DNA of 64,000 nt from Aldrovandia affinis. Its lineage: Eukaryota; Chordata; Actinopteri; Notacanthiformes; Halosauridae. A program made the position numbers and the translations under genes. The number at the start of each line of letters is the position of its first letter. The stretch's first letter is position 1. Below are positions 6,444-58,835 of the stretch, piece by piece. Location: NCBI GenBank assembly GCA_029706075.1, contig JAINUG010000109.1, positions 2,865,501 to 2,929,500 of the forward strand, in the 5' to 3' direction. The notes beneath the pieces were generated by a model. It saw nothing but the letters and a program-made list of their open reading frames with translations. It was not told where the DNA came from and did no database searches.

Positions 6444-7072
6444 TTAACCTGCTGTGTAGAACCTAAGATAAGACAGGCTCTTTGAATTAGCATACTCATT
6501 GATTTAGTATCAAAACAATATACATTGGGAGAGTGTCAAACTGTCTTAATCCTCCAACTGAGTTCTGATTTTGTGGCAAAGGGAGCGATTTTGGGCATAT
6601 TTCAGAAAGTGTTGAACTATCTGGAGTCTCAGGCTTCCAAACCCATACCACGCTAGCCTTCACAAAAAAGCTCAAATTGCTCAAGGCATGATTTTCTAAT
6701 GCGATGCCATCACCGTAAAGAATCAATTTTCAAAAGAAACTGGTAGAATGAACAAAACTAGAAAAAACAAACAAAAAAACAAGCTAAAGCAACTGTGTGC
6801 TTGATTATAATCGTGAAGGTTCTGCTCAAGTAGAGAGACATCTAGCCGGCATATTTTTCCAGGATCACGGCAAACTTGTGTGAAAGTGCCTCTGAGTTTT
6901 CTTCTGTTCTGTACCAGTGACACAGATTCTAAATGGACTGAATACAGGCGTAGGAGGGGCATCTGCTGTGAACAGCCTGTGGATGAGAAAGCCTGGCTTT
7001 GGGCCTAGCTTATTAATATCTTATTAAAGCTGAAGAAGCTGGGCTGCTGGGTGGCTCATCCTGGACCCTTGT
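6444..7072. other. No gene seen
   Basis: Unique-looking sequence up to 7020. At 7021-7072 it shows a GGGCTGCTGGGTGGCTCATC block also found, inverted, at the ends of the repeats near 54.86 and 61.05 kb. Confidence 0.45.
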
Positions 7073-7360
7073 CTAGTGTGTGGATGAGCCCCATGGTCTG
7101 CATCCTGCTAAGGCATTGTTCTAGTGTGTGGATGAACCACACGGTCTGTATCTTGTTAAATCACTGTTCCAGTGTGTGGATGAGCCCTACAGTCTGCATG
7201 CTGTTAAAGGACTGTTCTAGTGTGTGGATGAGCCTCACGGTCTGCATCCTGCTACGGCAATGTCCTAGTGTGTGGACGAGCGCCACGGTCTGCATCCTGG
7301 TAAGACACTGTTCTAGTATGTGGACAGTCAGCCACATTGTCTGTGTCCCATTGCACACCA
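7073..7360 (+). repeat. 48 bp minisatellite, six units
   Basis: The block CTAGTGTGTGGATGAGCC (CCAG in one unit) recurs at 7073, 7121, 7169, 7217, 7265 and 7313, exactly 48 bp apart. The monomer continues with a GGTCTGCATCCTG block. Because 48 is a multiple of three, the array stays open in frames on both strands and gives spurious repetitive proteins. The same monomer, inverted, forms the array at 58.5 kb. Confidence 0.95.
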
Positions 7361-21239: not shown

Positions 21240-21876
21240 TGTAGCGCCCAAGTAGGCGCATGCTATGGTGTCATTGTGGAGGGGAAATACCTCTCCGCTC
21301 GCTGGCTCGACCCTTGTGCAGAATTGGGAACCCTGGGACTAATTCCCCAGCTGAAGTGCATAAGCGCGATTACGAATTGTTAAAAGGTGTGCTTTCACAC
21401 AGGTACGGGGTTGGGAGTAGGTAAGAGATTGGGTGGGTGAGAGTTTGGCGAGAGAAAGAAAGAGAAAGAGTTTTGTTGGAGAGAAAAGACTGCGTGTTGA
21501 ATTAACACCACTTTGTTCTTTTGAAAGTTTGTTTGTGATTATTATTTTGTGGCAATCGGACAGATTACCTTTGGATAAACGACAACGGATTGGACGACGA
21601 CGACGATGAAGGATTTACCCCAGAACAGACAACGACAGCGGAATTGGATCACGGAAAATACAACAACGAGAGCGAAAGTTTGTGGACATTGTTGAATTTT
21701 CAGTGACATTGTTTGTCAATTTCCCTACACGGGAGCAGCATTTCCATCCGCGGAATCCTCCGCTGTAATTAATAAATCTCATTTTGCTTTTGAACTGTCT
21801 CCATTTTGCCATTATTCATTGATTAAGTTATCGATTATTGGTGAAATGGAAATCCCACACCCTTGGTTGCGCTACA
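21240..21876 (+). repeat. 5' LTR (637 bp)
   Basis: Bounded by TGTAGCG and CGCTACA and closely matching 24585-25176. It contains AATAAA at 21771-21776, a candidate polyadenylation signal, in a block of about 45 bp that is absent from the 3' LTR. A GA-rich tract lies near 21450. Confidence 0.93.
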
Positions 21877-21960
21877 TTCAGTGGAGATAAATAAATAAAT
21901 AATAAATAATAATTAAATAAATATTTAAGTTAATAAATAACTTACTCTGTACAGTGTGAA

Positions 21961-22850
21961 ATGGAGCCGTTCATTAGACAGCTAGAGAAAAGTCACGCTG
22001 CGCAGCTGGCGCACAACCAAACGCTGCTGGATGAGGAGCGGCAGCAGACAACCCTTCTGCGCAAGGAAGTAGCGTGGCTGTCAGCCACCACAACCTCCCG
22101 CCGACCAAACCCCAGTGCATTCATTGTGAAGATGACCGCGGAGGATGCCGTTGAGGTGTACCTCCAAACCTTTGAGCGAACGGCAACCCGAGAAGGGTGG
22201 GCTCCAGGGCAATGGGCCGGGTTGATAGCTCCATTCCTGTCCGGGGCAGCTCAGCACACGTACCAGGATCTGGACGAGGTCCAGGCCGCAGACTACACCG
22301 TCCTGAAGAGGGAAATTCTGCGTCGCGCAGGGCACAGCCTCATCGGCCAGGCACAAAGGTTTCACGATTGCACTTTCAACGCCACCTTACCACCCCGAGC
22401 CCAGATTCATCACCTGATCCGCCTGGCCAAGAACTGGATGACCATGGAACCGGCTGCCCTAATGCCAATGGAACGATTTGTCATTGACAAATGTTTACGC
22501 TCCCTACCATTTGAAGCCAAGAAGTTAGCAAGCCAGGCAAGCCCCCAGAGCGCCGACGAACTGGTGGAGCTGGTAGAAGAATACCAAGCCGCTGTAGAGG
22601 TCCTGCGCAGCAGCCGACCTGCCTGACCCGAACCTGAGAAGCCCAAAGCCTCGGTCCAAGCACGGGAAAAACCGAAACTGGACGGGATGACCGGGGCCAG
22701 GTTCAGAGAAGGTAACCGGGCACCTGCTATGGCAATGCCCCTTCATGAACGAAGACCGCCGGGCATGTTTTGACTGTGGAGAGGTGGGACATATCTCTTG
22801 GAATTGTCCCCGACGGGACATGGTGATGCGGACCGCATCCGCCACAGATA
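21961..22850 (+). pseudogene. Gag pseudogene of the Gypsy element with a zinc knuckle
   Basis: ATG at 21961 lies 84 bases after the 5' LTR. The first 221 codons encode a Gag-like protein: a helical, Gln/Glu-rich N-terminus (residues 1-45), a capsid-like region (LYLQTFERTA-type block and AQRFHDCTF), and a run of LVELVEEYQAA near the end. A TGA at 22624-22626 interrupts it. After a frameshift near 22735 a nucleocapsid zinc knuckle is readable, CFDCGEVGHISWNC, with C-x2-C-x4-H-x4-C spacing that would bind RNA. The sequence then breaks into the large deletion. The TGA could have arisen from CGA by C-to-T change. Confidence 0.85.
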
Positions 22851-22919
22851 CCCCGCCCGCAAAACCCTGCGGGTTGCTGCTGTCCTGCTGGGCCACCGAG
22901 GGTTGGCGCTGCCTTCCCT

Positions 22920-23165
22920 CTTCATCCGCGAGCATATGAAGGAGGCACAGGAGACGCAGCAAGGCATCTACAATCGTGGGGCGCGGCTCCGTGAATTTCA
23001 GCCCAGGGATCAGGTACTGGTGCTCGTCCCCACATCCGAGTGCAAGTTCCTTGCCCGCTGGAAAGGACCATATGAGGTCCTAGAGAAAGTGGGCGAAGTT
23101 AATTATAGAGTAAGTCAACCCGACCGACGCAAGAAAACTCAGCTGTATCATATTAATCTGTTGAA
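22920..23165 (+). pseudogene. Integrase C-terminal domain (GPY/F type)
   Basis: The frame contains IREHMKEAQETQQGIYN, FQPRDQVLVLVP, then KFLARWKGPYEVLEKVG and YHINLLKQWH. This is the C-terminal integrase region with the GPY module, ending in the conserved INLLK.W linker. The zinc-binding and catalytic DDE parts of integrase are missing, removed with the protease by a deletion whose junction lies between about 22850 and 22920. The frame continues directly into the reverse transcriptase, so integrase precedes reverse transcriptase within one polyprotein. Confidence 0.88.
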
Positions 23166-23229
23166 ACAGTGGCATGTCAGTGACCAGGTCCCAGAGGGCG
23201 GACCACAGCCGTGTTTTACAGCCAGCCAG

Positions 23230-24357
23230 GTGGACGGGGTTCCGCTAGGGGAGCAACTGAGCGTGGCCCAAAGACAGGAGCTACGGGAGCTGCTGGGCCG
23301 CCATCGAGATGTCTTCTCGATAGACCCGTGAGAGACCGACGTCATCGAACACCACATCGTCACTCCCCCGGGAGTCAAGGTAACACAGCGGCCATACCGC
23401 ATTCCAGAGGCGCGGCGTGAAGCGGTGCACCACGAAGTGCAGGCGATGTTGGCAGCCGGGATCATAGAGGAGTCCCGTAGTGAGTGGTGCAGCCCCATAG
23501 TCCTGGTCCCCAAGCCTGATGGAACCATCAGGTTCTGCAATGATTTTAGGAAACTGAATGAGGTTTCAAAATTTGATGCGTACCCCATGCCTAGGGTGGA
23601 TGAGCTGATCGAGCGGCGCGGGACAGCTCGATACATCAGCACGCTGGACCTGACGAAGGGGTACTGGCAGATGCCCCTGACAAGGGAATCCAGGGAGAAG
23701 ATGGCGTTTGCTACCCCGGATGGCCTATATCAGTACAGAAAACTGCCATTCGGGTTGCACGGGGCCCCTCCCACGTTCCAGCGGATGATGGATCAGATAC
23801 TGCGGCCCCATCGACAGTATGCCGCCGCATACCTGGACGACATCGTCATCCATGGTGAAGACTGGGGAACCCATCTCAGGCAGATACAGGAGGTGCTGCA
23901 TGCACTAAGAGGGGCGGGGCTGACAGCAAACCCCCAGAAGTGCCACCTTGGGCTACAGGAGGCAGAGTACCTGGGCTACACCATTGGCCGAGGGTTGGTC
24001 AAGCCCTAAGCGGCCAGGATCGACTCGATTCGGAATTGGCCCCACCCCATGACACAGAAACAGGTGCGTACATTCATCGGGCTGGCCATTTATTACAGGC
24101 GATTTATCCCCAACTTTGCCTCCCTGGCTAGCCCGTTGACCGACCTGACCAGAAAAAAGTTGCTGCAACAGGTGGAGTGGACCAAGACCGAGGAGACCAC
24201 ATTCCAGCACCTCAAGGCAGTGCTCTGTTCCGGACCGGTACTGGTCACTCCGAACTTTCAAAAGCCCCTGCTGGTTCAGACAGATGCGTCCGAGACTGGA
24301 ATCGGGGCGGTCCTGTCTCAAGTACAGGGGGGTGAAGAACACCCTATGATCTATTAG
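23230..24357 (+). pseudogene. Ty3/Gypsy reverse transcriptase and start of RNase H
   Basis: It is in the same frame as the integrase remnant, broken only by TGA at 23329-23331 and TAA at 24007-24009. Motifs in order: VPKPDGTIRFCNDFRKLNE, STLDLTKGYWQMPL (first catalytic Asp), LPFGLHGAPPTFQRMMD, AAAYLDDIVIHG (YLDD catalytic pair, near 23826-23850), and a connection with VRTFIGLAIYYRRFIPNF. RNase H then begins with LLVQTDASETGIGAVLSQ and stops at HPMIY, where a deletion starts. Both stops fit C-to-T changes (CGA to TGA, CAA to TAA), suggesting decay by point mutation of a once intact frame. Confidence 0.93.
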
Positions 24358-24540
24358 GACGAAAATTCACATTGGTAACAGATCATGCCCCGTTGGTGTG
24401 GATGTCAAAGAACCGCGAGAGTAACGTGAGGGTAACCCGCTGGTTTCTGTCCTTACAACCTTTTAATTTTTATGTGCTCCACAGGTCCGGCGCCAACCAT
24501 GGCAACGCGGACGCCCTCTCACGGAGAGAAGCCCTGTGGT
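24358..24540 (+). pseudogene. RNase H C-terminal part after an internal deletion
   Basis: After a short deletion the frame changes and resumes with LGRKFTLVTDHAPLVWM, which carries a conserved RNase H Asp, and ends HRSGANHGNADALSR. The junction falls at a small TAT/TTA overlap. Roughly 30 residues of RNase H are missing compared with relatives. No integrase follows. Confidence 0.85.
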
Positions 24541-24570
24541 GCCAGGCCGCTCCCCCTTCCGGGTTGGAGC

Positions 24571-24584
24571 TGAGGGGGAAGGTG
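24571..24584 (+). other. Polypurine tract
   Basis: TGAGGGGGAAGGTG lies immediately upstream of the 3' LTR, the expected place for the plus-strand primer. Confidence 0.75.
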
Positions 24585-25176
24585 TGTAGCGCCCGAGTAG
24601 GCGTGTGCTATGGCGTCATTGTGGAGGGGAAATACCTCTCCGCCGCTGGCTCCACCCCCACGCAGAATTGGGAACCCTGGGACTAATTCCCCAGCTGAAG
24701 TGCATAAGCGCGATTACGAATTGTTAAAAGGTGCGCTTTCACACAGGTGCGGAGTTGGGAGTAGGTAAGAGATTGGGTGGGCAAGAGTTTGGCGAGAGAG
24801 AGAGAGAAAGAGAAAGAGTTTTGTTGGAGAGAAAAGAGCGCGTGTTGAATTAACACCGCTTTGTTCTTTTGAAAGTTTGTTTGTGATTATTATTTTGTGG
24901 CAATCGGACGGATTACTTTTGGATAAACGACAACGGATTGGACGACGACGACAAAGGATTTACCCCGGAACAGACAATGACAGCGGAATTGGATCACGGA
25001 AAATACAACAACAAGAGCGAAAGTTTGTGGACATTGTTGAATTTTCAGTGACATTGTTTGCAGGCCGAATTTCCCTACTCGTTTTGCTTTTGAACTGTCT
25101 CCATTTTGCCGTTGTTCATTGATTACGTTATCGATTATTGGCGGAGTGGAAACCCCACACCCTTGGTTGCGCTACA
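24585..25176 (+). repeat. 3' LTR (592 bp)
   Basis: Begins TGTAGCG and ends CGCTACA. It matches the 5' LTR with scattered substitutions and lacks about 45 bp around 25077, the block that holds AATAAA in the 5' copy. Confidence 0.93.
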
Positions 25177-39685: not shown

Positions 39686-39932
39686 ACAAACACACACATA
39701 CAAATGTATCCACAACCCAGGTTTTTATGGATAATTAAAGGACCTGTGTGAGCTGGCTTTTATACCTCATGTATATATACAAGTCTGAGTTTGCATTATT
39801 TGGTTCTAATTGCTGTTGTGGTGTGGTGCCATGGTGTGCCAAGCTGCATATATGAACATATCACTTCAAGTGACAAAAAACATCCCCACAGCACAAATTC
39901 TTTACACCATGTTGTGATTTATCACAAATCCA

Positions 39933-40836
39933 CACTACCAGTCAAAAGTTTTAAAACACCCCCATTTTCCAGTTTTTACTGAAATGTAAGCAGTTCAAGT
40001 CCAGTGAATAACCTGAAATGGTACAAAGGTAAGCGGTAAACTGCCAGAGGTTAAAAAAAAAAAAGTTTAGGTTACCAAAAACTGAAAAAGAATGTACATT
40101 TCAGAGCTATAAAAAAAGGTATGAGTAACCGTAATGAGTTAACGTGGGATAACAGTCATTCTGTGCAAGTCGCCGACTCTGGATCCAGCAAAAGAGCCCC
40201 AGACCATCACGCTTCCTCCTCCATGTTTGACAGTTGGTGTCACACACTGATGAACCATCCTTTCGCTTACTCAACGGCCTACAAAAACCTTTCAAAATTT
40301 ATAGATTTCAATTTTTGATTCATTGGTCCATAAGACCTTCTTCCAGACTTCAGTAGACTACTGGAGGTGCTTCATGGGCCAAGCAAGCCTCTTTTTCTTA
40401 TTTTGCCATCTTAGCAATGGCTTTCTTACTGCCACTCAACCTGTAAAACCTGCAGCTTGAAGTCTTCTTTTCACAATTGAAACTGAGACTTCCTTACTTC
40501 GACCAGTGTTAAGCTGGGCTTGAAGCTGTTGTCCTGTGAGCCGCCTATCACGCAAGCTGTTGACTCTCAGAAACTTGTCTTCTGATTTTGTTGTGGCTTT
40601 GGGTCTGCCGGACCTCTTCCTGTCAGAATTTCCTCTAGTTTCCAAGTGCCTTTTTATGGTTTAGGAAACTACTCACTGCCAAAAAATGTATATTATTTTT
40701 CAGTTTTTGGTAACCTAAACTTTTTAGGTTTACTGCTTACCTCTGTACCATTTCAGGTTATTCACTGGACTTGAACTGCTTAAATTTCAGTACAAACTGG
40801 AAAATGGGGGTGTTATAAAACTTTTGACCGGTAGTG
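39933..40836 (-). mobile_element. Tc1-like family C, deleted copy (904 bp)
   Basis: The ends CACTACCAGTCAAAAGTTTT and AAACTTTTGACCGGTAGTG are inverted, and TA follows the right end. The long terminal inverted repeats extend about 170 bp, with the words GTTCAAGTCCAGTGAATAAC and GGTAAACTGCCAGAGG on the left and their complements on the right. On the minus strand the helix-turn-helix part of the transposase remains (GNSDRKRSGRPKATTKSEDK and VSIVKRRLQAAGFTG). The second-aspartate and glutamate parts of the catalytic core are deleted. Confidence 0.9.
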
Positions 40837-41780
40837 TATATGGACACATTCTGCTATATAAGAGATAGTCTGCCAATGATACCACCATCAATTACATAAT
40901 ATAATAAACTGTAATGAAGCCTTTATAAGCCATTTATAACTCCCATATTCTCTGACATTGAAAGTATTTCAATACCCACCGCCCCCCCTGCGCCATCAGC
41001 ATCTCCATGCAGTCTGTGACTGCTGTAGCTCTGCCCATGCACCTATCATTTACATAGGCCTAGGGGAATATATACACAATTCTAATGCATACCAACACAT
41101 TATAAACTATACATCAACTATACACCAGAAAACAGCGTCCTGAAGTGCCCAATTTGACATACTTGTATGAAGAAAAAACAAAAAAACTAAAACACATTTA
41201 AACACAGACCAGCTTCAGCATCATTAACAACAACAGAACACACACACACAAACACATACAACACAACACACAACACAATACACACAGCACGCACAGCACA
41301 ACATCCTTGAAAGGAAAAATAGTGGTTAGAAGGTCAGCCCAACCCCCAGCATCATCAAGAGTTCACAAGACATTTTTCAGAGACAGAGAGGGGGAGGGAG
41401 AGAGAGGGAGAGAGAAGATGAAGGGAGATGAAGACTCACAGAAGATAAGGAGATAGGTGATGGAGAGAAAAAGGGAAAGTAAGACAGTAATGGAGAGACA
41501 GAGATGGAGAAAGACAGAAATGAAGATGGAGGGAATGAGATAAGCAGGGCCTGGCTGGAGGACTGAAGCAGGAGATCTAAAGTCTAGATTTCTCCCTCCA
41601 ATATCTCCAAGGTCACTGTGGGCCCCAGAGAGGCCCCCGCTGTAACTATGTAGCACTCATCCTGCAGTACTCCTCTCGCAAGATCTCACTGTGGCTGGAG
41701 AAATCAGTCCAAACGCTGGACAACAATATATATTCACAACCATAGTTTTTAATTTCATGTTATATATTTATATATATATA
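40837..41780. other. No gene seen
   Basis: Contains CA- and AACA-rich words near 41240-41300 and a GA-rich tract at 41380-41530. No gene is recognised. Confidence 0.45.
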
Positions 41781-50516: not shown

Positions 50517-51204
50517 GTACATATACTGTACATGCAATATTTTATTTTTATTATTATTATTATTATTATTGATTATATCAGCAATCTTCCTCAGAAATGA
50601 ATTTTGTTTTATAATTTCTTACATTAATTTGTAAAGGGACTAATGTTTCCACCATTTTGACCATTGTAAACCAGAGTGGTATTCAATCCCACCGCTGACA
50701 ACAAGTCTGCAGGTGACTAAACGCTGCTGAAAGACAGACAAATTTCCTGTTCCTTGACTTGGGTAGTTGACGTATTTCCTTTAAATGATTAGAGGGAGAA
50801 AGAAACACAAGAAACAGTCATCACCAATATCTAAAAAGAAAAACTGTACACACTGCTGAGTGTATGTGGGTTTGTGCCCCCCCTCCCCCTGTTTTTGCCT
50901 GGGTTGTGGGAGCATAACCTTTGAAAACTTCAGATGACATTTAAACACACACACACACAAATACACATACTCACGCACATGTAAACACCTCCTACACACC
51001 AGATTCCGAGATATTCGCGGTGAATCGCGATTGTGTCCTGTCCCCCATCCTTGATTGTTGGAGAATGCCAAAAGCTGAGGGACTGAGCCAGGCAGTTGTC
51101 CTGTGGTGATTCACATCCACCCCCCATGCAGTCATGGGTCATGGGTTAGAGTCCCCTCCTGCCCCCGACACCATACCCACTATGTCCTATCATTAGTGAG
51201 TGCC
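50517..51204. other. No gene seen
   Basis: (TTA)n at about 50546-50570 and a short CA run near 50945-50958. A GGGTTAGAGTCCC word at 51143 is B-box-like, but no convincing SINE surrounds it. Confidence 0.4.
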
Positions 51205-52737
51205 CTGTCATGGCAAAATGTGACCAGGTGCGAAGAATGTGTCCGGGTGACGTCATCGGAATTCTTGGAATGTAGTTGCTATACCAACACGACGAGCTAG
51301 CATTCCTAAAACCAGAAGTAAGCCTAAGAGAGTTTCACGTTTTATTCTATGACATAAATTACACACGTTCATATCTCAACCGTGAATTTTGAAGCTGTTA
51401 TGTGTTTTTAAAAAGTAAGCTGCTAACAAGTTGCTACATTAAAACTACAACTACATTACAGCTAGGTGGCTAGCTACGAATAAGCATTGCTTGCTCAGCT
51501 GTACATCTAGCTAGCTGGCTAGCTACGAACATAATATATAAATTGCCTGCAGCTGGCTAGTATTTCTGAAATGTAGCTACAGCTAGCTGGCTAGCTACGA
51601 ACATAATATATGAATTATAATATAGATTATATTATAATTATATAGCCAGCTAGCTACGAAGATAATAATATGCATTGTCTGTTCAGCTGTACAGCTAAGT
51701 TGGCTGCCTAGCTACGAATATAATATATGGATCGCCTGCTTAGATGGCTAGTATTTTGTGTCACTTTGTGTAATTTTAGGTAGCTTTTGGCTCTGCCAGG
51801 TAGTGAAAGGTGCAGTCAAGCTACGAACATATTGCCTACTCAGCAGGCTAGCACGCAACTGAAATTATAGGGGAATTGGTCAGATTAAGCTAAAATATAC
51901 AGCTAGCGAGCTGGCTAACTACGAACAAAATAAATGCATAGCCTGCTCAGCTTTGGTCTCCTGATTTGCTGTCAAACTAGCTATTGAAACAGCCATGATC
52001 ACCAGCGAGGTTACAGCAGAGATAGCTAACAGAGAAAAAGGATTATAGGCTGAGAACAATGACCAAGGCTTGTTAAAAAATGTACATTATTGCTTTATGG
52101 GTATGCATAATCTGACCAATTCCCCTATAATTTCAGTTGCGTGCTAGCCTGCTGAGCAGGCAATATGTTCGTAGCTTGACTGCACCTTTCACTACCTGGC
52201 AGAGCCAAAAGCTACCTAAAATTACACAAAGTGACACAAAATACTAGCCATCTAAGCAGGCGATCCATATATTATCTTCATAGCTAGCTGGCTATATAAT
52301 TATAATATAATTATATATTATAATTAATATATTATGTTCGTAGCTAGCCAGCTAGCTGTAGCTACATTTCAGAAATACTAGCCAGCTGCAGGCAATTTAT
52401 ATATTTTGTTTGTAGCTAGCCAGCTAGCTAGTTGTCCAGCTGAGCAAGCAATGCTTATTCATAGCTAGCCACCTAGCTGTAATGTAATGACGTTTAATTA
52501 TTCCAGTTGTAGTTTGAATGTAGCAACTTGTTAGCAGCTTACTTTTAAAAAACAGCTTCAAAATTCATGGTTGAGATATGAATGTGTGTAATTTATGTCA
52601 TAGAATAAAACGTGAAAATCTCTTAGGCTTACTTCCGGGTTTTAGGAATGCTAGCTGGTATAGCAACTACATTCCAAGAATTCCGATGACGTCACCCGGA
52701 TACATTCTTCGCACCCAGACACATTTTGTCATGACAG
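51205..52737. mobile_element. 1.5 kb foldback-type palindromic element
   Basis: The left arm 51205-51887 (683 bp) is closely complementary to the right arm 52108-52737 (630 bp) around a spacer of 220 bp. The outer ends are CTGTCATGGCAAAATGTG and its near-complement CACATTTTGTCATGACAG. The inner limits are CAGATTA and TAATCTG. Within each arm a GGCTAGCTACGAA(C/T)ATAATATAT-type sub-repeat recurs several times. A TGACGTCA octamer lies near the outer end of both arms. No open frame or transposase, and no clear target duplication. Long inverted arms made of short sub-repeats are a feature of foldback elements; the assignment is by architecture only. Confidence 0.85.
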
Positions 52738-53408
52738 CTCCCGTCCTTGCCCACACTCAACGCCACAGATGCCATATGCACCGCTTCTACAAACCCTTGC
52801 TGGGTTCTTGGAGAGGTGGTGGACACAAATCCCTGCCCAACAGACAAGCTTATGAACTAAAAACTCAATCTGTTTAACACATTATTATAAGGTTATTATG
52901 ATCAGGTTATTTTTAGTCAGCATGTTGTGGTCTATTTTCGCCCCCACTGGCCTTCCAAAATAAATGAAATTTGGAGGTGGGTGGGTGGGAGGATGAATGA
53001 TGGGGAGGAAGGAGACGGTGTCACTGTCACAACCCTCCTCATTGATTGGGGAAAGCACAGACAAGCACACAATCTTGTCATTCACATGCTTTTGCTATTT
53101 TGGGCCATAATAATAATAATAATAACAATGTTTATTATGATCCATAGTAATGGCACAATAAGCATCATTGTGGGCTTATGATTATTATGATTAAGATCAA
53201 CATGTTATGGTGTAGTTTGGGCCCACTGGTCATTCCAAATAGATAACCTTCTTCTCACTTTAAAATGTGGTGGTGGCAGGGAGGAAGGAGAATATATTCA
53301 TAAGCCTGTCCAATTGCCGCATCAATTGCAGAAAGCGCCGACAAGCACATGCTTTTCCCAGTCCCCTAGTTGAGCTCACGCAGTCATTGTCTCAAAGGAG
53401 AACATTTT
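52738..53408. other. No gene seen
   Basis: Two partly similar blocks lie near 52915-53000 and 53195-53290 (CATGTTGTGGTCTATTTTCG versus CATGTTATGGTGTAGTTTGG, then GCCCCCACTGG versus GCCCACTGG). They look like an old duplication of about 280 bp, each copy followed by AGACAAGCACA or GACAAGCACAT. No gene. Confidence 0.5.
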
Positions 53409-55545: not shown

Positions 55546-55714
55546 ATGGAAAATGTGAAAGAATATGTGTCAGAGCTGAGAGGAATCAGTCTGGTATCGT
55601 TTTTAAAACAGGCATGTTAAATAACAGGCCCTAACAGCTGAATCAGGGTCAGCTTACTCAAGCCTCATCCCAGGAAGCAAGTACCTATCAGAATGCCGTT
55701 GGCAACAGCTGTCA

Positions 55715-56030
55715 GCTTTAGTGACTGGGGGTTAGGATGCATGAAGCTTGAATAAGATGATCCTGGGTCAGTTTTAATGATTTGGGGTTAGGATTCCAGC
55801 TAGTGAGCGTACCGTGCCCCACAAGAAGCCTGCTGTCGGCACAGTACGCTCACTAGCTGCTTAGTCAAGCCTCAACCTTACCTAAAATTGCTAAAACTGA
55901 CCCAGGATCAACTTACTCAAGCTTCATCCTAACCCCAAATCACTCAAACTGACCCAGGATCAGCTTACTCAAACTCAGGATCAATTTACTCAAGCCTCAT
56001 CCTAACCCCGTCACCCCAGTAAGCTGATCC
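55715..56030. repeat. Inverted and tandem repeat cluster around a 21 bp hairpin
   Basis: Core hairpin: AGCTAGTGAGCGTACCGTGCC (55798-55818) pairs with GGCACAGTACGCTCACTAGCT (55838-55858) with one mismatch and a 19-base loop. Outside it, a block with GATCCTGGGTCAGTTTTA and GGGTTAGGAT on the left is repeated in inverted orientation on the right, where the complement ACTGACCCAGGATCA recurs more than once in tandem. The GGGTTAGGAT words are not telomeric arrays. No target duplication was confirmed. Confidence 0.85.
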
Positions 56031-56485: not shown

Positions 56486-57284
56486 GGCACACCCCAAAAA
56501 ACACAACAGTTGCACCAAGCTTCTCGTCAACATGACGTGCCACATGAATATGGCTTAATCCTTGGACTGTGGGACTTTGTTATCTATTTATTAACTTATT
56601 TCTTTATTTTTTGTGTAGATGTTCACTCTGACCTGAATGCAGGGCCCTCTCTCTCCTCCCTTTTGAGAGGCAGAATGAAATAGACTGACTGAAGAGGGCT
56701 CTCAGGGAGAGAGGAGGAGCAGATGCAGTGATGGCTTGGACAGTAATGGCGCCCACAGTGGAGGCACTGTGGCCCTGGCACTTGAAGGCTGGATGTAGAA
56801 GGAAAAGAAAGGGCCAACGCATCCTCCAGTCCAAAAAATCTGTCAAAATGAAATCATTAGGAGGCCGAGGGAGATGGGGAGGGGTGGGTAGCATGTGGTG
56901 GAGTGCCCAGGATTGCACAGATGACTTGGCAGCAAATAAAGCAATGTACAAAAAATGATTTTGGGAGCTCCAGTTTAGGCCGGGTTTAAAAAAAATAAAT
57001 AAGGCAAATAGAGGGTCAGCCTCGATTTGCACCTGTCCCTGATTTCCCCCGAAAAGACCAGATTAAGATGAAAAACTGGTTTTGGACCCAATCATCTCTC
57101 GGACTCCTGCAGACATGAAAGTGTCCCTTACAGATGTGCTATGCAGTATGCATTTCTTACGTCAGCGTTTACATGGCCAAGATTGTTTTTGTTTTTTTCC
57201 CAAATCAGATATTTCCAGTCAGCAGCATTAAACTACATTTGAGAATCTGAATTAGGTGTTACGGTATAGAAATATTAGCAATTA
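56486..57284. other. No gene seen
   Basis: A mixed-composition stretch at 56600-57040 has open frames on both strands but no recognisable protein family. Confidence 0.4.
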
Positions 57285-58145
57285 CATTACCGGTCAAAAA
57301 TTTTAGAACACCCCCATTTTTCCAGTTTTTACAGAAATTTAAGCAGTTCAAGTCCAGTGAAAAACCTGAAATGGTACAAAGGTAAGCGGTAAACTGCCAG
57401 AGTTATTTAAAAAAAGGCCCTTTTCAGGGAACAAGTAATGGGTTAATGTGGGTTAACAGTCACTCTGTGCAAGTCACCGACTCTGGATCCAGCAAAAGAA
57501 CCCCAGACCGTCACGCTTCCACCTCCATGTCTGACAGTTGGTGTCACACACTGAGGAACCATCCTTTTGCCTACTGGATGGGGTACAAAAACCCTGCGTG
57601 ATCTACCGAAGATTTCAAATTTTGATTAATCGGTCCATAAGACCTTCTTCCAGTCTTCAGTAGTCCACTGGCAGTGCTTCATGGCCCAGGCAAGCCTCTT
57701 TTTCTTATTTTGCCATCTTAGCAATGGCTTTCTTACTGCCACTCGACCTGTCAAACCTGCAGTCTTCTCTTCACAGTTAAAACTGAGACTTCCTGAGACC
57801 AGTGTTAAGCTGTGCTTGAAGCTGTTGTCCTGTGAGCCGCCTATCATGCAAACTGTTGACCTCAGAAACTTTTCTTCTGATTTTGTTGTGGCTTTGGGTC
57901 TGCCAGACCTCTTCCTGTCAGAGTTTCCTCCAGTTTCCAAGTGCCTTTTGATGGTGTAGGAAACTACACACTGCCAAACAATTAACATTATTTTTCAGTT
58001 TTTGGTAACCTAAACTTCATTTTTTAACCTCTGGCAGTTTACCGCTTACCTTTGTACCATTTCAGGTTATTCACTAGACTTGAAGTGCTTAAATTTCAGT
58101 AAAAACTGGAAAATGGGGGTGTTCTAAAACTTTTGACTGGTATTG
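57285..58145 (-). mobile_element. Tc1-like family C, deleted copy (861 bp)
   Basis: Left end CATTACCGGTCAAAAATTTT, right end AAAACTTTTGACTGGTATTG, with TA on both sides. The terminal inverted repeats continue inward with the family C words. Minus-strand transposase remnants between 57626 and 57988 include GNSDRKRSGRPKATTKSEEK and WTTEDWKKVLWTD (first-aspartate block). The rest of the catalytic core is missing. Confidence 0.9.
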
Positions 58146-58458
58146 TATGTGGCAGAAAGCAACAACGTCAACTCATACGGGTTTAGTCTTGACCGCCAGA
58201 TTTACAAAAGGATTGCTACTGCTTTTGGAACATGAAAGCAGTCTACGTCAGATTTACTAAAGGGTTGCAATGGGTCAAATCCCATTTATTTATTCATATA
58301 TTCTCCTACCGCAAAATTGTGAATGAGGGTGTTTCATTTCTGTGATTTTGTCATTATAACCACTCTTAGTAAATATGTTGTTAATATGTCTGTATCCATG
58401 ACCACAAAATATTGACTGCTGTAGCACTGTGGCTATGTCCTTAGTAAATCTGGCCCTG
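58146..58458. other. No gene seen
   Basis: Contains an imperfect repeat of TTTACTAAAGG/GATTTACAAAAGG words near 58200 and 58260. No gene. Confidence 0.4.
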
Positions 58459-58459
58459 A

Positions 58460-58835
58460 GTGCCTTAACAAGATTCAGACTGTGGGGCTCATCCATACAC
58501 TAGAACAGTGCCTTAACGGGATGCAGACCGTGGGGCTCATCCACACACTAGAACAGTGCCTTAACCGGATGCAGACTGTGGGGCTCATCCACACACTACA
58601 GCAGTCTTAACAGAATGCAGACCATGGGAATCTTCCACACACGAACAGTGCCTTAACAGGATGCAGACCGTGAGGCTCATCCACACACAAAAAAAGGTCT
58701 TAACAGGATGCAGGCTCTGAGGCTCATCCACACAGTAGAGCAGTGTCTCAACAGACCATCGGGCTCATCCACATACTAGGATAGTGCCTTAACAAGTTGC
58801 AGACCATGGGGTTCATCAACAGACTAGTTAACTTA
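58460..58835 (-). repeat. 48 bp minisatellite, second array, inverted
   Basis: TAGAACAGTGCCTTAAC starts at 58501 and 58549, 48 bp apart, and weaker copies continue to about 58830. The unit is the complement of the 7.1 kb array (GGATGCAGACCGTGGGGCTC then ATCCACACACTAGAACAG). Later units are shortened or diverged. Confidence 0.92.

Follow-up and report, generated by a model that had tools for sequence, protein, structure and literature searches.

The palindrome at positions 51205-52737 of the window (the whole 64-kb stretch of Aldrovandia affinis DNA that was analysed, 64,000 nucleotides) is very probably a non-autonomous foldback cut-and-paste DNA transposon. It would belong to a dispersed family, called the T family here, with a terminus of about 100 bp (CTGTCAYGSCARAATGTGTCC...), a 2-bp target duplication and the target TGG|NN|CCA. 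The first-pass annotation of this DNA had likened the palindrome to foldback elements, and this reading held up: the arms are dispersed in the genome, the ends are exact and sharp in unrelated flanks, 2-bp duplications are found and sister elements have empty sites. All of these, and the target, are direct observations on the T family.

In a local alignment, the left arm (51205-51890, forward strand, 686 bp) was paired with the reverse complement of 52737-52105, the right arm (52105-52737, reverse strand, 633 bp). The two are identical at 591 of 612 aligned bases (96.6%), with 95 gap columns, and an inverted repeat of such length and identity cannot have arisen by chance. The spacer between them measures 214 bp (51891-52104). 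When compared with the first-pass annotation, the palindrome and its placing stand, and its lengths of 683 and 630 bp for the arms and 220 bp for the spacer are replaced by these values. With 686 and 633 of the 1533 bp in the arms, most of the element is long inverted repeat, as in foldback elements. One gap in the alignment is a stretch of sub-repeat size, 58 bp long, found in the left arm only (51662-51719, forward strand). The terminal module T occupies about 100 bp at the left end (51205-51304, forward strand, starting CTGTCATGGCAAAATGTG), and its right copy (52647-52737, reverse strand) is without 9 bp that the left copy has. The module is common to the T elements compared, and their flanks diverge directly outside it. 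No stop-to-stop frame of at least 110 aa overlaps the element, in agreement with the earlier remark that the palindrome holds no transposase. Most of the left arm, folded as a single strand, gave a modest signal (z -1.97, 20 shuffles).

The arms contain internal direct repeats, another feature of foldback elements, and the several short copies per arm described earlier were recovered both in the repeat listing and in the block counts. In the repeat search, a 20-nt GCTGGCTAGCTACGAACATA-like block recurs directly seven times, with six copies in the left arm and one in the spacer; the right arm holds related copies that run the opposite way. The GGCTAGCTACGAA-like array of the left arm lies at 51465-51831 (forward strand; six 20-nt copies, repeat family D4), and the same sub-repeats lie inverted in the right arm at 52164-52481 (reverse strand; inverted pairs and repeat families D1/D6). 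When up to two mismatches on both strands were allowed, the element had 12 matches to a 13-nt GGCTAGCTACGAA-like block and the rest of the window had 0, compared to 4 in all over three single-base shuffles of the window. Such blocks number 2 to 18 per element in 25 of the 27 complete T elements treated below; the other two, L053 and L065, have none, which we count against the best explanation. The AATGTGTCCGGGTG-like motif is found 0 to 6 times per complete element and once in the window copy, and the majority sequence of the terminus has the AATGTGTCCGGGTG motif twice.

The arm, the spacer and the terminus were then searched in the window's own 1.22-Gb genome, and the resulting copy counts are lower bounds, being taken from the best candidates or from one pattern. 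The left-arm query gave 982 candidates, and all of the best 40, which were scored, matched. The first-pass annotation had proposed this search, with arms found only at 51205-52737 as the mark of a local inverted duplication; since the arms are present elsewhere, that mark is absent. The matches were of three sorts, namely those with the outer arm end, those starting at arm position ~100 and those starting at ~253. Within their various flanks, the outer ends begin with CTGTC, less often with GTGTC, and the flanks differ directly outside. For the spacer query (231 bases, 124 candidates), 11 of the best 40 matched all 231 bases and 1 further match reached position 193, these 12 including the window; the remaining 28 stopped at 157-159. 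Because the spacer is matched over its whole length elsewhere, the foldback is repeated as a whole and not by its arms alone. The terminus query gave 486 candidates, and the best 40 all matched at 92-100%. A 27-bp terminus pattern with up to two mismatches was found at 196 places (93 + 103) and a 21-base pattern at 144 exact places (69 + 75); the reversed control gave 0 in each case. Many T termini have no listed partner, a second point counted against the best explanation. An exact search for the left-terminus 27-mer in viral and prokaryote collections gave 0 matches, which is uninformative for a fish. None of six strings, five from the terminus and one for the block, is printed in the papers covered by a literal text search, which says no more than that, and the titles and abstract starts of the literature on teleost foldback elements and 2-bp duplications named no family that could be matched.

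The fetched loci yielded 27 distinct complete elements, each bounded by termini in both orientations, that range from 413 to 4550 bp and include the window copy. They were picked by their matching ends; a locus fetched twice was counted once in both the complete-element and the duplication counts, and ends whose match starts beyond the first 5-6 terminus bases were left out. The complete 844-bp element L075 is outside the 27. One-base variants of the ends occur: GTGTC in L056, L067 and L074, GACAC in L017 and L055, and GACTG in L071. Of the 27 elements, 21 are flanked by an exact 2-bp target duplication, compared to a mean of 3.85 and a maximum of 12 in 10,000 permutations of the right flanks, and none of the 27 has a duplication of 3, 4 or 5 bp. 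The six elements without an exact duplication (the window copy CC/CT, L016 CG/TG, L063 GG/CC, L064 GG/AG, L065 TG/CA and L067 CG/CA) also count against the best explanation. The 21 exact cases set the place of the dinucleotides at the window copy, CC at 51203-51204 on the left and CT at 52738-52739 on the right, which differ by one mismatch and form a degenerate 2-bp duplication. The earlier statement that there is no obvious target duplication holds for the window copy; the family does produce one of 2 bp, and its dispersed copies carry target duplications as foldback elements do.

The target is palindromic, TGG|NN|CCA, and its middle two bases are doubled. In the 21 exact-duplication targets, the two bases before the doubled pair are G in 19 and 19 cases and the two after it are C in 19 and 21, with T and A outside them in 15 of 21 each. 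GG stands at -4,-3 in 45 of 58 termini and T at -5 in 33 of 58, with GG at 4.9% in the window; the 58 termini are not independent sites because an element's two ends share one target. Its exact ends, together with the 2-bp duplication and the sharpness of the palindromic target, make the T family easy to annotate and offer a handle on its enzyme. Two arrangements of T ends are recorded here as side observations. The 2430-bp T element at L065:84-2513 is flanked by 12-bp sequences that are perfect inverted repeats of each other and not a target duplication, and it is possibly nested in another palindrome. At G000 C1213:1321632-1321728, two T termini face each other with their outer ends, 43 bp apart, and the elements run opposite ways.

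For the empty-site test, the two flanks of each of the 21 elements were joined across a single dinucleotide, and the genome was searched with the joined sequences. Among the best 40 of 2620 candidates, uninterrupted matches to the joined flanks were found for at least 5 of the 21 elements (L006, L058, L062, L070 and L074). Seven empty sites were fetched. All align with one dinucleotide and without a gap at the junction, and between 41 and 47 of the 47 shown bases are identical; in empty site L083 the dinucleotide differs by a base. A weak match (74%) overlapping the L061 junction was not counted. The joined flanks of the window copy matched only themselves in the same genome, so that no paralogous empty site was found for it there, which is another point against the best explanation.

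The terminal ~100 bp is the part common to T elements, and it is all that L053 and L065 have in common with the window arms. The inverted arms range from 21 bp in L070 to 686 bp in the window copy, the longest of those measured; in L054, L063, L066, L067 and L074 the best-scoring inverted pair is internal, and no terminal arm length is given for these five. As arms of about 20 to 686 bp occur with the same termini, the foldback stands at one extreme of a graded series, and this series may record how foldback arms grow. On the other hand, five arms with one terminus (L011, L012, L014, L015 and L018) have matches that all end within 672-682, just short of the window arm end, and the match of L041, a class B copy in the terms used below, ends in the same interval. 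This common inner boundary of the five one-ended arms is not accounted for by the transposon model and is a point against it.

No transposase of the family's own was found on either strand of the T elements with frames listed (L053-L057, L059, L061, L063 and L065); the frame listing covers part of the complete elements, and for a further set of loci open frames were listed on one strand. This result, too, counts against the best explanation. In the apparently one-ended L075-L077, no recognisable transposase of an autonomous partner was seen in the frames by eye. Two T elements carry other coding sequence. The 4550-bp element of L057, with an exact TT/TT duplication, contains gag-like frames with a zinc knuckle, judged by eye, at L057:1337-3537, and the family may thus acquire sequence from elsewhere. 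At L054:990-2096, a Tc1-transposase-like frame (by eye) lies within a T element together with its own inverted repeats of ~229 bp, and it looks like a nested Tc1.

We account for the element as follows. A transposase supplied in trans by another element would bind the termini and excise the element, which would then be joined across a 2-bp stagger between the GG and the CC of the target. How far inward the inverted repeat extends varies between copies, and its 686 bp here produce the foldback look. The arms likely grew when one side served as template for the other, in post-excision repair or through gene conversion. Among candidates for multiple transposase-binding sites, the repeated blocks and the AATGTGTCCGGGTG motif rank first, by analogy with Galileo, an element of the P superfamily in Drosophila whose arms, according to an extract of PMC3688188, contain multiple transposase-binding (THAP) sites. 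The same extract describes further likenesses: Galileo has long inverted repeats with internal repeats, and a terminal segment of ~40 bp is conserved between families whose long arms are family-specific. Unlike the T family, with its 2-bp duplication and no transposase found, Galileo has a P-superfamily transposase and a longer duplication. Tetris / DAIBAM of the Drosophila virilis group is also similar, being, according to PMC4079207, a non-autonomous foldback whose repeat end also occurs in a miniature element, with variable tandem repeats further in and no autonomous partner found; it differs in its 220-bp repeats, insect host and sequence. Galileo is reported to have caused inversions (PMC3688188, in extract). 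Long near-perfect palindromes such as the one in the window would be plausible rearrangement hotspots.

The features of the T elements were compared with those of known superfamilies. The 2-bp duplication of the T elements does not agree with the P superfamily, in which it is 7-8 bp (7 bp in Galileo). Helitrons have neither long terminal inverted repeats nor target duplications, and the T elements have both. The T ends sit in TGGNNCCA and not in the TTAA of piggyBac, the duplicated dinucleotide is the TA of Tc1/mariner in 1 of 21 elements, and the 3-bp TWA duplication of PIF/Harbinger is not that of T elements. The 2-bp duplication is also too short for MULE/Mutator foldbacks (4-10 bp, partial text of PMC10045372) and for hAT (5-8 bp, partial text of PMC4482050). 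A palindromic duplication of 8-10 bp, TGTCATGRCA, which would point to hAT or P, was considered and rejected because its bases belong to the conserved terminus of copies elsewhere. The PHIS superfamily at large, with duplications of 0-4 bp according to PMC10045372, accommodates 2 bp; the targets of its groups PIF/Harbinger and ISL2EU do not fit, and a PHIS group without a name may. ISL2EU resembles the T family in a 2-bp duplication within a short palindromic target, but its target is A|AT|T and its termini are usually GG (PMC4482050, in excerpt); with TGG|NN|CCA and CTGTC here, it is ruled out by target and termini.

A finer version of the best explanation places the T family in the CMC (CACTA/EnSpm-Mirage-Chapaev) group, moved by an EnSpm-like enzyme, and we regard this as a tentative possibility. 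CMC elements make 2-4 bp duplications in the excerpt of PMC4482050, a range that includes the 2 bp found here. The T family also resembles Plavaka A of the CMCT group, which in the extract of PMC12730594 is fungal and has 2-bp duplications and TGT..ACA ends; this sequence lies one base inside the T-family ends, whose terminus is CTGT..ACAG. According to the same extract, however, CMCT termini are mostly CA..TG, compared to CTG..CAG in the T elements. Transposase_21 (EnSpm) is found at 4 places in the genome, but none of them is close to a T end among the T ends listed. The Plavaka model had no match in the genome, nor in any control genome, and is therefore uninformative.

Part of the element is found in a second kind of transposon. 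The stretch from arm position 100 to 833 (51304-52037, forward strand) is common to the T arm and a TTAA-flanked piggyBac family of the same genome (class B/C loci) at 90-97% identity. It takes in the first ~147 bp of the spacer, and the last ~67 bp of the spacer is found only in T elements among the scored places. The 12 class B copies have the arm from position 100 on, mostly to ~833, preceded by ~142 bp of different sequence with TTAACACTAGGAGCGCC at its outer edge; TTAA lies at or near this edge in 11 of 12, L021 being cut short. Downstream frames in the class C loci L044 and L036 match DDE_Tnp_1_7, a transposase domain of piggyBac type, with E values of 7.1e-28 and 1.4e-12. The arms had also been considered as derived from a LINE 5' UTR, as suggested by L041, and this was rejected: the LINE-like frame stands behind one copy, and two class C copies lead to the piggyBac-type transposase. 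That the element itself is a derivative of this piggyBac family, moved by its transposase, is improbable. In favor of such a derivation are the shared stretch and the window arm, which is nearest to class C (99% over 287 columns) in a tree where the groups are mixed. Nevertheless, none of the 27 class B/C loci examined has the terminus T, the T elements have a 2-bp duplication in TGGNNCCA instead of the TTAA edge of class B, and T elements of other terminus subtypes contain pieces of the sub-repeats without a long shared stretch.

Two transposon families therefore share one module. The tree was built on arm positions 400-686 with 44 rows (17 T-element, 12 class B and 15 class C), after one of 45, L009_2 (82.8% identity), was dropped. 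The labels are mixed on the best tree, where T elements need 10 changes; shuffled labels need 13.7 on average, with 7 of 500 shuffles as low as the T elements, which are therefore partly clustered. Good support is found for 2 of the 40 inner branches, which force at least 2 label changes, and the bootstrap is not settled. Since the inner module is also in the piggyBac family, one lineage handed it to the other, perhaps repeatedly. The blocks are present in T elements of several terminus subtypes, which suggests T to piggyBac as the more natural direction. We regard the module as a clear case of sequence sharing between different cut-and-paste transposons. A bolder proposal is that a vertebrate transposase lineage not yet described, with the TGG|NN|CCA target and the 2-bp stagger, moves the T family, and that the sub-repeat module was exchanged more than once with the unrelated piggyBac family, so that one cis module is common to two transposase systems. 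We offer it as speculation that is rather unlikely as a whole.

The first-pass annotation also described mirrored octamers near the outer ends and an ETS-like site in the right arm, from which a bidirectional promoter or enhancer was suggested. The sites were confirmed. By octamer search and terminus alignment, TGACGTCA lies inside the left T at 51248-51255 and inside the right T at 52687-52694, and CTTCCGG lies at 52632-52638 (forward strand), in the right arm only of the window copy; the names CRE-like and ETS-like are motif labels. The octamer occurs exactly twice in the 64-kb window (0.45 expected under a first-order Markov model). It is very doubtful that the element, through these sites, works as a bidirectional promoter or enhancer of host genes. 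The idea draws on the octamer's position 44 from both ends and its presence in the column-majority sequence of the terminus. Against it, of the 58 termini whose coverage extends to query base 75 or further, 23 have an intact TGACGTCA (41 of 58 have TGAYRTCA), and the ETS-like site is in one arm. The CpG of the octamer is kept at 0.69 for C and 0.83 for G, compared to 0.95/0.84, 0.88/0.90, 0.83/0.81 and 0.76/0.90 for the other four in the majority sequence; of the five, it has the lowest C and the lowest C-times-G product but not the lowest G, and all these figures include mixed-in subtype differences. TGACGTCA is part of the conserved ~100-bp terminus with no sign of being kept, and its presence can be explained without a host function.

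The reading of the palindrome as a local inverted duplication of host sequence and not a mobile element, which the inexact duplication and missing paralogous empty site of the window copy would favor, is refuted by the dispersed copies with sharp common termini in unrelated flanks, the 21 exact duplications among 27 complete elements and the empty sites of 5 sister elements, and its probability is negligible.

Several other repeats were seen in the window. A 48-bp tandem repeat with the same unit is found at 7072-7324 and 58459-58827, 51 kb apart and in opposite orientation. Two copies of another repeat, at 39932-40841 and 57283-58148, have inverted ends of ~110-124 bp, and a Tc1-like frame (by eye) is inside the second copy at 57626-57994. 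The stretch 21240-25176 resembles an LTR element: its end repeats match in two pieces, at 94% and 92% identity, and gag-pol-like frames, by eye, lie between them. A second, weaker palindrome at 55711-55953 (76% self-complementary) overlaps a 52-bp tandem repeat. UnaL2 LINE 3' ends were also found, and they fit a fish host.
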